Positions 711 through 7,724 of a DNA stretch of 24,999 nt are shown here, piece after piece. A program made the translations under genes and the position numbers. Numbering within the stretch: the stretch's first letter is position 1; the number at the start of each line of letters is the position of its first letter. Source of the stretch: a virus; the IMG/VR virus record IMGVR_UViG_3300020472_000157, positions 1 through 24,999 of that record; one strand, given 5' to 3'. The notes below the pieces were generated by a model. It had not been told where the DNA came from. It was given only the letters and a program-made list of their open reading frames with translations, and made no database searches.

Positions 711-3700
711 CTAAGAAACTCTCATTATATATGCAAGTACATAATATGGTGGTAGGTTCATATTAACTCCTGTTTGATTACTATCACTATTACTACTCAC
801 ATCAAGACCCCTTATAGCACTTTTTCCACTCATGGTATGAGTATGATCTCCAGCTGCCGTAGTAGTACCTCCATTTACTGTAGGATATTCAACAGCAGTA
901 CCATGAGTATCATGTTTTAGAGCTGGATAACCTCCAATTGTTGGGTCAGTATAGCTATGACTATGAGAACCTGTTTCATTAAGTGCATAAGTACCCTTAG
1001 CATGATCGTGTTTAGGCAATACAGCATTTTTATGACCACCCATACTAGTATTGGCACCAGTAATATTAGATCTCCAATTACCACCACCATAATCTCTAGC
1101 ACCAAGAACAAATTGATTTCTTAAATCAGGAGTTCCATTAGTACCATCACATAATTTCCAATTTTCCAATGCAGTAAGTTCACTATTAGTACCACTCCAT
1201 ATAATAATACCTTTAATTGGAACATTTCCTGCTGATCCACTACCACTACCACCAGTATCATACCAAATATCTCCATCACAAACATCACCATTAGCAGGTT
1301 GAGTAGTCTGAACCCACTTTTTACCATCAGCATTACTAGTATTAGGAATATTAATTCTTTTAGTTCCTGTCGTTGGTGTAGTTATAGTAATTGGTTTATT
1401 ACATGAATTAGCCCTACTTGTATAATTTACTTCAACCTCCGTGAGACCACCAGAACCTCCACCAGCATCAGCTTTTAAAGTAGTATTATCTAAAGTTAGC
1501 CCATCACCGACTGTCAAATACCTTAATTTACCTTCACCACTATGAGCACTATTATCCCAGAATATAATTCTATCCGCATCAGGATCAACTCCACCCAATT
1601 CATTACCATCAACACTAAGAACATCATCTATATTTGCATTTAATGTTATAGCACCAACATTACTATCAATAGTTCCTTTAAAAACACCATAATATTCATT
1701 AACAAATGCCTTATCCCAATATCTGTTCTCTCTGCCGCTATGGGATGTATCAGATCCAAGATCACTACCACCATTAGTAGCAGGAACTAATGCATTCGTA
1801 GTACTATTATCAAGATTAGAAGGATCCTCAACAATCATATTCATGATGGTTATAAGACTAGTTGGTTGTCCTTTAGTAGTATTAGCCTTTAATCCAAAAC
1901 CCATTTCAGGATTTTTTGCAGAATCTACATTAACTTGGATACGTGCAGAACTTCCATTTCTATCTGGTCTACCATCAATATGATTAAACATAAGATTGGC
2001 ATTACCATATCCATCATGAGTACCTATTCCTATTGAACCTCCATTATGACCTGGTGCACCAGCAACAATAGAAGCACTATTATATAAATTTCTTGACCGT
2101 GCACTGTATGTTATACCTGCACCAACAGTAGCATCTTGTGCGTAAAGAGCTTGATAACTTAAATCAGCAGCATCATCTCTTATAAATGGAATTTTAAATG
2201 CAGGATTCTGAGCAGTTGTTAGATCTATCTTAACAGTATTTGCCTGAGCAGCTGCATTATCACCACTACCAATATTAGTTAAACAAGAACCATCACCATA
2301 AAATTTTATTGCGGTAACAATACCAGCAACAGCTAATGTTCTATCATTATCAGATACCTCTGAACCAGAAAAAGGTAACGTCGTTCCAATACCAACATTG
2401 CTATCTTTATCACCAACTATCCAATGATCAGAAACACCAGAACCATTACCAATTACTAGTTGTTTATCAGCATCACCTTCATTTCTAGAACCAACTTCAT
2501 TATGAATTGGTAACCTTACATTAAAACCAATCGCTACACTACATTTACTAACAGTCTCATATTCGCTACAACCTACGGCACAATAACCAATAAATGTATT
2601 ATTACATGCGTGGCAACCTTCAGTACCATTAGCCTTTCTACCAGCATAATGACCTAAGAAAGTATTATAGTTTCCAGTTCTAACAAGACATCCTGCATGA
2701 TTTCCAAGTAATAGATTACGATCACCAGCAGTAACACATTTACCAGCACATCTTCCAAGAGAAATATTAAAATCTCCAGAAGTAGCACATTTGAATGCAT
2801 CTACACCTATGGCAATATTACATGCTCCTGATGCATTTCCTTGACCATGACCTGCATTGAAACCTAAAAATATATGTCTACCAAAACAAACACTACCACT
2901 AACAACTTGTGAAGAAACATAACTATGTCCTGCATTCCGACCAATGGCAACAACATCACAAAGATCTTTTGCTAATGTTCCTGCTTCACATCCTATAAAG
3001 ACATTATTTTGACCTCCTCCATTACAAGCATGAGAATTAGTACCATCTAGAGAAGTACCAGCATCCTTACCAATGAATATATTGTAACAGGTATCGCCAT
3101 CTAAAGAACTACCAGCATCTGTTCCTGCTCTTAAATTCTCTTGAGCATCTGCTTGCCATGCAGTAGCACTACCAACATTGCATAAGTGAGAACCATCACC
3201 ATAATATTTACAAGCATAAACATTGTTCCAACATCCAGCTGCTTGTACATGTCCGTCATCACATCCAGTATCTCCAGTTTTTCCTAAATTATAAACTCCA
3301 CTCTTTTTAGGGAATACACCCGAATCAAAATATGATTTTTTAGCAGCATCAGTACTAGCACCTTCAGAAGTAAATGAAACAATACCAATTACATTATCAC
3401 TAGAATTCCTTACATTTAAGTCTATATGTCGTGATCCTTCATTCTCAATTACAAAAATACCATCAGAACCACCCTGACTATGAATATCACCATCAGCGTT
3501 ATTGGTATCACCTTGTAAATGTAAAGATCCATCAAGATAAAGACTACCATGATTTGGATTAACTGTTAATCCAATACCAGTATAAACATCTTCAACACCA
3601 CCAGGATCATTGTTACTATCAACAAATGTTAGGAAATATTTACCATCAGTAGTTGTAGCTGTTGTCTTAACACAATTGGCATTAGGAACTGTGACATTAC

Positions 3701-6700
3701 AATCTATTGTTCCATAGAAGGTTCCACCTCTAAATTCCTTTGCCCATACAGCATTCCATCTCTTAGTATCACTTTCTCCAAGACTTTGTGTTTCATGACT
3801 AGCTGGATTGATATTATTATCTTTGTTAATATGTAATCTTCCTGTTCCATTAACAACGAAAGACATTAATTCAGTATTTTGCTCATATCTAATCTGACCC
3901 CTACTTAATGCAGCACCACTAGTTCCATCAGCAAAGAAAATTGAACCATGATCACCTACACTAGAACCTGAATAAATTGTTATTCCCTGATCACCACTTC
4001 CACTACCAACAACTAAATTATTAGATTCACCATCAAAAGAATTTGGAATAATATTACCAACTCCCAATTTATCATTTTGATATACCAATCCCGTACTATC
4101 AACCTCTACACCATCATAACCACTGGAAGCACTACCAAAATGAATATAATGTGTATCTGCAGGTGTTGTATCGTCTACTATTAGAATATTTTTTGCATTT
4201 GTTATTGGAACCGTAGGATCAATATCACCTTTAAAAGTACCATAATAATGATTCGCAGTTACAATACCAACAGCTAATATAGATGTATTAAGTTTAATAT
4301 CATCATCCATAGTGTATGGATTATTTGGATATGTGGTTCCTATACCAACATGACCATCTGATGTAATGCGAAGTCTTTCCTCTACTCCATCCTCTTCATT
4401 ATTAAATTTAGTATAGAAACGCATACTACCGCCTCTACCATGAGGGCCACCACCCCCTTCACTTTTAACATCTATTTCACCTAAACTTCCACTTTGGGTC
4501 ACAAATCTAAGTTTAGGACTAACAACATTTTCTACATCTCCACCACTGTTTTTAAATAATGATAAGTCGTCTCCTTGAACTACTAACTTACTTGATCCAA
4601 GCCACTCAGTTCCATTGTAAGAACTAACATCAGTTATGTTTACTAAAAGACGACCATCTGTTGAGATGCGAACTTTTTCTGTTAAATTATTACCATTACG
4701 AGTTTGAAATGTTAAAGCACCTTTTTCATTAGTATTAGAAACATCAGATGCAACTCCTTTAATTGAAGAATATATGGTATCATTATAAGCATCATCTTTA
4801 CCTTGGAATTGAATCACACCGACAGCATCATTATCAGCCATATTCCCTACACCAGGATTATGTTGTAAGAATAGTTCTGCTCCTAAAACACCTGCATCAT
4901 TAGATTCAAGTCTTAAAACTTCCGTATCCAAAGTCCGAGCATGAAGAATAGAAGTACGAGGTATAGTAGTTCCTATACCAACTCTACCATCAGCATCAAT
5001 AACCATTCTAGGTGTGTGTGTGGCCAATTGTGCATTATTAGCTGTTCCGAATAGCAACTTACCATTACTAGTAGTAAGGTCAGAATATGTCCAAATAGCT
5101 GCTGCACCTTTACCAAATCCAGCACTTGATTGTCTATAAAATTCTATGCCAGCTCTATTGGCAGCACCAGAACTCTCCACACGAATTGCATTATGACCAT
5201 CATATGTTACAGCATGTAGCTTGCTCTCTGGAGCAGTGGTTCCAATACCAAGACGATTTTGTAATGAATCAAATACTATATTACTATTACTATAAAGAAA
5301 TTCATTCTGCCTACTATTATATGGATTATGTTGTTCAACAAAAGTCATATAATAGGTACCAATACCACTTGTTCGGAAATGTGAAGTTAAACTTGGGTTA
5401 GTACTACCCACCCCAACCTTATTAGCATTAACAGTTGTCAAATCATCAACATCAACCCAATCTATTTCTGTACCTGTTGATTGCAATAACTGACCATTAG
5501 TACCAAGTGAATCATCTTTATCTTGCAATCCACCCGTAATTTTTACCCCGTCGCTAGTAGTAGCTAACTTTTCACCCGCATCACTAGCACCAGCCCAATA
5601 AAGTTTTACATCGGCATCATTATCTGCCTTAATTAAATTTTTAGTAAAATTACCATTACCTACACTAAAACCTTCACCACCAGCATAAAAATTCATCCAA
5701 CCAGTAATATTTTTAATCTCAACGTTTGATCCAGTATGGGCAATTTCTAAATCAGCCTCATTACCAAATGTTGCTTTAACACTATCATAGAAAGCTAACC
5801 TATCATTTGATGGTTGCCACTCAATATCCTTATTAGCATTACTTAAATTATGAAAATGAGCCTTTCCAGCAAATGTAGAAATACCTGTTGACCAAATATA
5901 AGTTGTAGAAGTAATACCCGTAACGGTAACACCCATTCCAGAAGTCTGAAAACGAAGTCCATCATCATAATAAAGAGATACACCAGAACCAACATTTGCT
6001 CCAAGTACCTTTTCTCCTAAATTAGTTTCTAATTTAAAGTGTTCTGAATTTAGTACAAGATAACCAGTTTCATTTTCAATATATGAATCAGTACCAGTAT
6101 GATAAATTTTTAGATCTCCATTTTCTGATAGTTCTCCAGCTACACCATCACCAAATGATAATACTGAACTATCAGGAAAACTTAATTGGTTTGCACTCTT
6201 ATCCCAATGAACTACTTTACTACCAATAGATCCAGTACCATTAAAATACACATCATCAAAAGCAGATGCAACACCAACAAAAGTAGAAACTCCTGGACTT
6301 ACATAAAGTTGTGCAAAAGAAGCAGACTCATAAACTAAATTATCCCTAATGAATAAATCACCACCAACATACAAATTACCACCTGTAGTAGTAATTCCAC
6401 CAGCACCAGAAATAGTAGCTGCTACACTTACAGGATCAGTAGGAGCAGGCCCATAGTGAGATAAAGAACCACCTACAATAACATTCTTATTAAATACTCC
6501 ACCACCTTGTGTGATAAAAGATCCAGTATTAAAGTTATTAGATTCACTACTGTCATTAATATTAATGGGATCATTAGAAGCTACTGTACCACCATAAGAA
6601 TCAAGTGTAAGATTTCCAAGTGTAGTAGTTATTACATTATCATTAGATCCTGCAATTTCAATATTACCTATAGTACCAACACCAGTAACCTTTAATTTGG

Positions 6701-7724
6701 TTATGGTTGCATAACCTACTGTTAGTCCATCACCATCAAATGTTAAATTAGCACTATCTTGTAATTCTCCACCAGCACCAGCATATGTAACCCTACCCGA
6801 AGTTAAATCTTCTACTTTAAATGTATTTGCCTGACCACCATCATTAATATCTAATAATCCATAAGTTGTTGTAATACCTGCAACCTCTAACCGACTAAAT
6901 GAAGCTACTCCAACTACATCTAATAAAGTCCTTGGTATAGCACTTCCAATACCAAGTCTATTATTAGCATCATCAAAGTAAATATTATCTGCACCATCAA
7001 CTAATCCTGTAGCACCATGGAATTGTACTTGTCCTACATCACCACCTGCACCAGAAGTAACTGCATTTGCTTGTGTCCACTCAACTCCACCTGAATTATT
7101 CTTTACAAGAATATTATTTTGAGATCCAGGATCATTATCAGTATCATATATGGTTCCTGTTAATCTAATATCTCCTACAACATGAAGTGTATTCGTTGGG
7201 TCAGTGGTACCAATACCGACTGAAGCAATTCCCGCAGTGTCATTGTTATAAACAAAAAGATGTGCTCCAGTAAAAGAACCTATTCCAGTAATTGGATCCC
7301 TATTGTTATATTGTATTTCATGATCATTTCCCACTGCTTCAACAGTAACAGTTACAGCAGTACCTGGATGACCATTAGCTTTAACAAATCCAGTAACAGT
7401 AACTGCTGATCCTACAAAATTTATATTGGTAATACTACTAATACCCAAATTTGGATCGGCATCTGTTGATGGAATTACTATCTCTTCATCCCTAATTGTT
7501 ATAGCACCTGGTATAACTCCACCACCAATTGGAACCCAAAATCTTTCTCCTGGACGATTTGCTATAGTGACAATTTGATACTGTTGTCCTGGAGGAATAG
7601 TCTGAGTTTCTGGAGGAGTACCCAGATTAGGTTCAACCTGATCTAAACCAATATACTGATATCTGTCCTCAGTTAACTCTGCCTGAGGTCTTACTTTTAC
7701 TCTACCACTAAGATACTTAGGCAT
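711..7724 (-). CDS. Giant modular tail fibre/adhesin with C-terminal collar domain
   Basis: At 2337 aa this is the largest protein in the window. Its N-terminus (MPKYLSGRVKVRPQAEL, then a PGERFWVPIGGGVIPGAI block near residue 65) resembles a recurrent head of cyanophage structural proteins and probably docks to the baseplate. Residues of about 110-1500 are a shaft of beta-rich repeats with many short motifs of the type GIGTTxPxxxLHVxG and GxVGIGTT, as in trimeric phage fibres and S74-type fibres; no S74 peptidase is seen. Two YYGDGSxLxNIG-type motifs flank a cysteine-rich YadA-like beta-roll at about 1520-1735. Residues from about 2168 to the end are a tail-collar domain with NGTPDLRNQF, HxH motifs (HDH, HSHS, HTH) and NLPPYYVLAYIM. 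The start overlaps the previous gene by 8 bp. Probably a homotrimeric host-recognition fibre; the receptor cannot be told. Confidence 0.85.
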   Translation of the reverse strand: MPKYLSGRVKVRPQAELTEDRYQYIGLDQVEPNLGTPPETQTIPPGQQYQIVTIANRPGERFWVPIGGGVIPGAITIRDEEIVIPSTDADPNLGISSITNINFVGSAVTVTGFVKANGHPGTAVTVTVEAVGNDHEIQYNNRDPITGIGSFTGAHLFVYNNDTAGIASVGIGTTDPTNTLHVVGDIRLTGTIYDTDNDPGSQNNILVKNNSGGVEWTQANAVTSGAGGDVGQVQFHGATGLVDGADNIYFDDANNRLGIGSAIPRTLLDVVGVASFSRLEVAGITTTYGLLDINDGGQANTFKVEDLTSGRVTYAGAGGELQDSANLTFDGDGLTVGYATITKLKVTGVGTIGNIEIAGSNDNVITTTLGNLTLDSYGGTVASNDPININDSSESNNFNTGSFITQGGGVFNKNVIVGGSLSHYGPAPTDPVSVAATISGAGGITTTGGNLYVGGDLFIRDNLVYESASFAQLYVSPGVSTFVGVASAFDDVYFNGTGSIGSKVVHWDKSANQLSFPDSSVLSFGDGVAGELSENGDLKIYHTGTDSYIENETGYLVLNSEHFKLETNLGEKVLGANVGSGVSLYYDDGLRFQTSGMGVTVTGITSTTYIWSTGISTFAGKAHFHNLSNANKDIEWQPSNDRLAFYDSVKATFGNEADLEIAHTGSNVEIKNITGWMNFYAGGEGFSVGNGNFTKNLIKADNDADVKLYWAGASDAGEKLATTSDGVKITGGLQDKDDSLGTNGQLLQSTGTEIDWVDVDDLTTVNANKVGVGSTNPSLTSHFRTSGIGTYYMTFVEQHNPYNSRQNEFLYSNSNIVFDSLQNRLGIGTTAPESKLHAVTYDGHNAIRVESSGAANRAGIEFYRQSSAGFGKGAAAIWTYSDLTTSNGKLLFGTANNAQLATHTPRMVIDADGRVGIGTTIPRTSILHARTLDTEVLRLESNDAGVLGAELFLQHNPGVGNMADNDAVGVIQFQGKDDAYNDTIYSSIKGVASDVSNTNEKGALTFQTRNGNNLTEKVRISTDGRLLVNITDVSSYNGTEWLGSSKLVVQGDDLSLFKNSGGDVENVVSPKLRFVTQSGSLGEIDVKSEGGGGPHGRGGSMRFYTKFNNEEDGVEERLRITSDGHVGIGTTYPNNPYTMDDDIKLNTSILAVGIVTANHYYGTFKGDIDPTVPITNAKNILIVDDTTPADTHYIHFGSASSGYDGVEVDSTGLVYQNDKLGVGNIIPNSFDGESNNLVVGSGSGDQGITIYSGSSVGDHGSIFFADGTSGAALSRGQIRYEQNTELMSFVVNGTGRLHINKDNNINPASHETQSLGESDTKRWNAVWAKEFRGGTFYGTIDCNVTVPNANCVKTTATTTDGKYFLTFVDSNNDPGGVEDVYTGIGLTVNPNHGSLYLDGSLHLQGDTNNADGDIHSQGGSDGIFVIENEGSRHIDLNVRNSSDNVIGIVSFTSEGASTDAAKKSYFDSGVFPKKSGVYNLGKTGDTGCDDGHVQAAGCWNNVYACKYYGDGSHLCNVGSATAWQADAQENLRAGTDAGSSLDGDTCYNIFIGKDAGTSLDGTNSHACNGGGQNNVFIGCEAGTLAKDLCDVVAIGRNAGHSYVSSQVVSGSVCFGRHIFLGFNAGHGQGNASGACNIAIGVDAFKCATSGDFNISLGRCAGKCVTAGDRNLLLGNHAGCLVRTGNYNTFLGHYAGRKANGTEGCHACNNTFIGYCAVGCSEYETVSKCSVAIGFNVRLPIHNEVGSRNEGDADKQLVIGNGSGVSDHWIVGDKDSNVGIGTTLPFSGSEVSDNDRTLAVAGIVTAIKFYGDGSCLTNIGSGDNAAAQANTVKIDLTTAQNPAFKIPFIRDDAADLSYQALYAQDATVGAGITYSARSRNLYNSASIVAGAPGHNGGSIGIGTHDGYGNANLMFNHIDGRPDRNGSSARIQVNVDSAKNPEMGFGLKANTTKGQPTSLITIMNMIVEDPSNLDNSTTNALVPATNGGSDLGSDTSHSGRENRYWDKAFVNEYYGVFKGTIDSNVGAITLNANIDDVLSVDGNELGGVDPDADRIIFWDNSAHSGEGKLRYLTVGDGLTLDNTTLKADAGGGSGGLTEVEVNYTSRANSCNKPITITTPTTGTKRINIPNTSNADGKKWVQTTQPANGDVCDGDIWYDTGGSGSGSAGNVPIKGIIIWSGTNSELTALENWKLCDGTNGTPDLRNQFVLGARDYGGGNWRSNITGANTSMGGHKNAVLPKHDHAKGTYALNETGSHSHSYTDPTIGGYPALKHDTHGTAVEYPTVNGGTTTAAGDHTHTMSGKSAIRGLDVSSNSDSNQTGVNMNLPPYYVLAYIMRVS
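2503..3115 (-). repeat. Cysteine-rich YadA-like beta-roll repeats within the giant fibre
   Basis: About ten consecutive protein repeats of 17-27 residues fit the pattern hydrophobic-x-hydrophobic-G-x-x-A-G. Examples are NIFIGKDAG, NVFIGCEAG, VAIGRNAG, IFLGFNAG, ISLGRCAG, LLLGNHAG and TFLGHYAG. This is the signature of the left-handed beta-roll heads of YadA/Hep_Hag trimeric adhesins. Unlike typical YadA heads, about 15 cysteines fall in roughly 210 residues, several in the turns (FKC, GKC, AGC, HAC, VGC). Confidence 0.75.

Follow-up and report, generated by a model that had tools for sequence, protein, structure and literature searches.

Spaced cysteines in a YadA-like beta-roll of a giant cyanophage-type tail fibre

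Why a short repetitive domain of a phage tail fibre should carry most of the cysteines of its protein, and whether these tie the domain together, is the question raised by the window analyzed here, a virus record of 24,999 bases taken over its whole length. The domain is a cysteine-rich beta-roll array of about ten 17-residue repeats (aa 1540-1741; window 2502-3107, minus strand) within a giant tail-fibre protein of 2337 aa (ORF 711-7724, minus strand). An earlier note on this DNA had pointed to the abundance of cysteines in window 2503-3115, which corresponds to aa 1537-1741 of the ORF, and this was confirmed: these 205 residues hold 15 cysteines, compared to 25 in the whole protein (hypergeometric P = 1.3e-10), none of 2000 residue shuffles of the fibre (0/2000) gave 15 cysteines in any 205-residue stretch, and no cysteine at all precedes aa 1342. 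Over the 15 further ORFs of the window that were counted, cysteine accounts for 0.82% (47/5717) of the residues. The enrichment in the roll is real and strongly localised. TGT is the codon of 23 of the 25 fibre cysteines. The approximately ten IGxxAG repeats described in the same note were recovered as seven strict [IL]GxxAG repeats plus three looser ones (IGVDAF, IGYCAV and IGFNVR), with a spacing of mostly 17 residues and some longer, loop-containing repeats. Its cysteine-bearing flank motifs TGDTGCDDG, AAGCWNN, YACKYY and HLCNVG were likewise all present, at aa 1482-1518.

The N-terminus of ORF 711-7724 showed 50% identity to PSSM2_023 of P-SSM2 (E 9e-22) and 44.5% identity to a protein encoded by AG-345-L05, a marine virus assigned like P-SSM2 to the Kyanoviridae, and the conserved 220 N-terminal residues of the ORF (window 7065-7724, minus strand) are common to other cyanophage fibres. 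Gene order around the ORF is that of P-SSM2, where the T4-GC20 position is taken by PSSM2_023; gp5-like baseplate and fibre genes adjoin, and the ORFs upstream gave PHROG matches to baseplate hub/tail lysozyme and tail fibres. With a homologous N-terminus and conserved gene order, the ORF belongs to the T4-GC20 tail-fibre genes, and, judged by its genes, the window virus is T4-like and cyanophage-related. The orthologues in P-SSM2 (about 600 aa, 3 cysteines) and AG-345-L05 (about 900 aa, 2 cysteines) lack the cysteine-rich roll, the latter having no roll, which argues that this roll is a lineage-specific module. In single-sequence queries of viral contigs, no direct orthologue of the window roll was found, and the window protein retrieved two weak N-terminal relatives. 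No Pfam family was detected in the 2337-aa protein (E 0.01) or in the roll domain (E 10), and no outer-membrane anchor of trimeric autotransporter adhesins at the C-terminus of the protein; the roll matched PHROG tail spike/virion structural families, and the C-terminus is a collar-type HxH region. The HxH motifs KHDHAKG, GSHSHSY and DHTHTM located there (window 714-1013, aa 2238-2337) are similar to those that bind iron at the tips of T4-type fibres. A weak collar-domain match came from the adjacent ORF (101-688).

At its N-terminal end, the roll carries a cap (aa 1523-1550, ADAQENLxAGTxAG..DGDTCYN; window 3075-3158, minus strand), upstream of which lies a cysteine-rich flank (aa 1478-1519, TGDTGCDDG..AAGCWNNVYACKYYGDGSHLCNVG; window 3168-3293, minus strand) that is a variant of the WxxVYAxxFYGDGSxL module. 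The C-terminal cap module (aa 1752-1785, KQLVIGNGSG..WIVGDKDSNVGIGTTLP; window 2370-2471, minus strand) is free of cysteine. The N-terminal cap motif NL.AGT.AG....TC[FY]N occurred 18 times in 11 sources, including the window, with a cysteine at the place of C1546 (codon at window 3087-3089, minus strand) in 14/18 occurrences, a figure that may be high, as the sources came mostly from a search selected for cysteine. C1546 in the first layer reads as a conserved cap feature.

With regard to the fold, an AlphaFold2 monomer model of the window domain (window 2355-3167; pTM 0.62, mean pLDDT 65.6) aligned with CbpF (Z 11.4), YadA (Z 10.9; rmsd 3.1 over 146 residues, 23% identity) and BoaA (Z 9.3), and the other left-handed solenoids GlmU and LpxD scored equally high. 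The model of a regular cysteine-rich array (L066:343-852; pTM 0.84, pLDDT 84.7) had one strand per 17-residue layer, and its best alignments were with other solenoids, among which many are right-handed beta-helices. For both models, Foldseek gave no match in the PDB at E 0.001, and sequence searches of the PDB returned nothing significant. Of the earlier proposal, a beta-solenoid fold and a virion tail-fibre context were supported, and the roll is likely a beta-solenoid, of either hand. Monomer prediction of repeat proteins can get handedness wrong. The solenoid relatives of the two AlphaFold2 models apparently differ although the repeat type is the same, being right-handed for L066:343-852 and left-handed for window 2355-3167.

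In its canonical form, the YadA head repeat reads GxNSVAIGAxSxAx, with loops placed between positions 14 and 1 (PMC9543794). Mapped onto it by motif, the phage 17-mer is this 14-residue repeat with a 3-residue insert (N-T-T) between @14 and @1, and it shows the YadA-like head repeat motif with the invariant glycine at @8. In 2,740 repeats among the matches listed for the cysteine-selected viral pattern, conserved positions were G1 (1.00), N-3 (0.98), G11 (0.82), A4 (0.79) and a hydrophobic position 0, the values for G1 and position 0 not being independent, since the repeat finder also demanded both. Cysteine was nearly absent (0-0.2%) from N-3, -2, -1, 0, G1, A4, G5 and N8, amounted to 1-3% at positions 9-11, and reached 6, 14, 10, 24, 14 and 8% at positions 2, 3, 6, 7, 12 and 13, respectively, with the value at position 7 inflated by the search pattern, which itself demanded a cysteine there. 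The top positions 7, 12 and 3 correspond to the exposed x positions @14, @2 and @10 of the canonical repeat, and the same three ranked first for cysteine in a sample without cysteine selection. The YadA-like register was therefore supported (17 = 14 + a 3-residue insert), with cysteine limited to non-core positions. The suggestion of regular cysteines in turns held only insofar as they are limited to particular register positions; the position occupied differs between successive repeats.

The earlier note had further envisaged disulfide ladders or metal binding; the spacing of the cysteines disfavours a ladder of either kind. Among the matches listed, approximately 2,600 repeats of some 100 viral loci were compared with chance computed per locus, with ratios bootstrapped over 98 loci. 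Cysteines were depleted both on neighbouring residues (63 vs. 110 expected; ratio 0.57, 95% CI 0.45-0.73) and at the equivalent position of the adjacent layer (246 vs. 293 expected; ratio 0.84, 95% CI 0.74-0.94). The number of cysteines per repeat was also under-dispersed (z -5.1). Lys/Arg showed the same avoidance as cysteine, and Ser, Asn and Tyr did not. A disulfide or metal ladder of stacked cysteines was rejected on these two ratios; because they are spaced apart instead of stacked, the cysteines resemble parts of a binding surface and not such a ladder. The same depletion weighs on a metal-binding surface for soft metals or iron, which would be the cysteine equivalent of the iron-binding HxH motifs in T4-type fibres. 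Marine phage fibres have been discussed as metal ligands (PMC11705849), and one CHAC (CxxC) occurs in a window loop (aa 1704-1707), but metal sites need clustered ligands and clustered cysteines are depleted; we consider this reading very improbable.

One arrangement was enriched, namely a cysteine at position 3 together with one at position 7 in the following layer (102 vs. 74 expected; 1.37, 95% CI 1.15-1.55). This enrichment was specific to cysteine and, with z 4.3 among about 230 position pairs, would survive correction for that number, although z of about 4-5 was also attained by pairs of other residues with small counts. It could reflect occasional disulfide staples between these two positions, intra- or inter-chain, with C1546 pairing with the second-layer cysteine that follows IG (GCEAG), by which a very long, thin fibre would be stiffened after release to oxic water. 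In line with this, several of the caps that keep the C1546 cysteine, and the window itself, also have the GC[EC]AG cysteine. However, such a partner is missing for most cysteines, pairs in the closest geometry are depleted, and positions 3 and 7 would lie about four residues and one layer apart (roughly 14 Å in one chain with the canonical 14-residue layer), too far for a disulfide unless pairing occurs between chains. Such staples thus appear unlikely.

Turning to the distribution of the module, a DNA pattern for the roll repeat with a cysteine two residues past AG retrieved at least 120 stretches in viral contigs. Among the matches listed, at least 115 viral loci had five or more 17-residue repeats in an array, the median being 0.83 cysteines per repeat, and one 2,527-aa frame held 136 cysteines. 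Because this first set had been picked for cysteine, a cysteine-neutral equivalent pattern was applied to viral contigs as well as to genomes of bacteria and archaea. Here, 45% of the viral roll loci were without cysteine and 30% exceeded 0.3 cysteines per repeat, compared to 66% and 2%, respectively, of the bacterial loci. In roll-bearing ORFs of cysteine-rich contigs, cysteine made up 5.0% of the roll, 3.3% of the sequence flanking or separating rolls and 0.6% of the remainder. The cysteine-rich roll is therefore not unique to the window virus and recurs in many uncultured viruses. One contig (L083) had AL-type cysteine-rich rolls in two ORFs (2149 and 2527 aa; 115 and 136 cysteines), with cysteines also in VGIGTxxP linker modules outside the roll. 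The sole strongly cysteine-rich roll among the bacterial genome matches, on a Candidatus Paceibacterota contig (L337), has 51 repeats of the form GTCAGYCGVAG with 1.24 cysteines each, for which a viral or a cellular origin are both possible.

Among named phages, cysteine-poor rolls were found in Roseobacter CRP-1/CRP-7, S-B05, P-SSM2, SPO1 and Axy12 and intermediate ones in HTVC111P and HTVC112P (0.32-0.41 cysteines per repeat), one of the two named-phage counts having used a looser repeat pattern. Cysteine-richness as a general cyanophage trait was rejected, given the few cysteines in the rolls of P-SSM2, S-B05, S-WAM2, Syn1 and ACG-2014e. Cysteine-poor 17-residue rolls (L002, L342-L350, L351-L354, L356) occur in phages of Roseobacter, Achromobacter, Bacillus (SPO1) and Methanosarcinales, i.e., of very different hosts, which argues that the roll as such is a widespread fibre module. 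Genes of the psbA/psbD type were present in 12/49 cysteine-rich records (one below the family cut-off) vs. 0/50 cysteine-poor ones, and the T4 portal in 11/49 vs. 1/50, a contrast that is suggestive only, because the cysteine-poor contigs were shorter in total, and that hints at a link between cysteine-rich rolls and cyanophages. A giant algal virus origin of the cysteine-rich contigs found no backing in NCLDV capsid matches (0/49 records), a result that shows little, as the control was likewise without a match.

The conservation of the cysteines was examined in related roll proteins, taken as 17 pairs of 68-97% identity. Cysteines at variable positions were retained at 0.82 compared to 0.72 for other residues (p 0.004), and at 0.79 compared to 0.72 (p 0.15) without position 7, which the search pattern had selected; both p-values are optimistic, since some pairs share members. 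Between the window roll and that of AG-345-L05, the cysteines of DTC[YF]N, GCEAG and G[RK]CAG coincide and most others differ. Conservation among homologs, which the earlier note had suggested comparing, was thus found for the cap cysteine, whereas most of the others are scarcely more conserved than their variable neighbours; and the opposite picture, random or non-conserved cysteines, applies only in part, since placement in the fold is non-random but most cysteines are not fixed. As retention barely exceeds that of other residues, there is weak support for each thiol being functionally required. These data also bear on relaxed composition, by which exposed cysteines would be tolerated, virion proteins folding in the cytoplasm with no export through an oxidising periplasm, and would drift up in some lineages without function. 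The non-significant retention outside position 7 favours it, as do the nearly cysteine-free exported bacterial rolls next to viral rolls with zero to about 2 per repeat, and the occupation of the same sites by the cysteine codon neighbours S, Y, R and F. Nevertheless, 14-24% cysteine at single positions vs. about 1% in other ORFs and the non-random spacing speak against it, and tolerance alone does not set the cysteine level, given the viral roll loci that have none. We regard relaxed composition as a minor possibility.

To reconcile these observations, we propose that a YadA-like beta-solenoid module has been inserted in a cyanophage-type tail fibre, in which the 17-residue repeats would stack as one layer each. 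The core of the layer would consist of the invariant positions (N, hydrophobic and G), and the six variable ones, in pairs after IG, AG and NTTG, would form a side surface that most likely touches the host cell. In the window virus and many uncultured viruses, cysteine would be one residue type used on this surface, about one per layer and away from other cysteines, so that most roll cysteines would probably be unpaired exposed thiols, serving as contact residues or reactive groups on a rapidly varying adhesin surface. We infer surface exposure in the trimer, the free state of the thiols and the adhesion role, the last because published YadA-domain cyanophage proteins are virion proteins that mutate upon host switching (PMC6224464, PMC9146016). 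That the roll is a host-adhesion surface with isolated exposed thiols, and not a disulfide ladder, has in our view about an even chance of being correct. Counting against it, most cultured cyanophages with rolls have few cysteines, and a purely unpaired-thiol model does not predict the enriched 3-to-7 pair.

Several known systems resemble the phage roll. Insect-type cysteine-repeat beta-solenoid antifreeze proteins carry many cysteines per repeat, at fixed positions in each coil and forming disulfides; both are solenoids, but in the phage roll the cysteine positions vary and close pairs are avoided. The giant roll protein of AG-345-L05 (75 cysteines in at least 2341 aa) has the same caps and repeats as the window and is the best match to its roll (best local identity 40%), although it is encoded by a different gene from the orthologue of the window gene. 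YadA-type heads map residue by residue in the GxNSVAIGAxSxAx register and tolerate loops at the site of the phage insert (PMC9543794), whereas the phage roll differs in its 17- instead of 14-residue repeats, its cysteine-rich variable positions, its phage fibre context and its lack of a membrane anchor and of a Pfam match. The YadA-domain proteins of S-TIM4 (ORF108, 2235 aa) and S-SZBM1, compared by their published description, are virion fibre proteins of similar size in T4-like cyanophages, with no cysteine feature mentioned (PMC6224464, PMC9146016). YadA-like rolls in cyanophage fibres are already known as host-interaction proteins; in the open-licence literature, we found no description of a cysteine-rich one.

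Frequent among viral contigs but almost missing from bacteria, the cysteine-rich roll is either a general viral attachment trick or a striking case of relaxed composition. Rather unlikely, in our estimation, is a widespread class of viral adhesins, including those of psbA-carrying uncultured cyanophage contigs, in which tens to more than 100 free thiols per chain would be spaced along a beta-solenoid and would use thiol chemistry for attachment, either exchanging disulfides reversibly with the surface of the host or capturing ligands. The spacing rule itself, about one cysteine per layer with neighbours avoided, predicts reduced, accessible thiols over disulfides.
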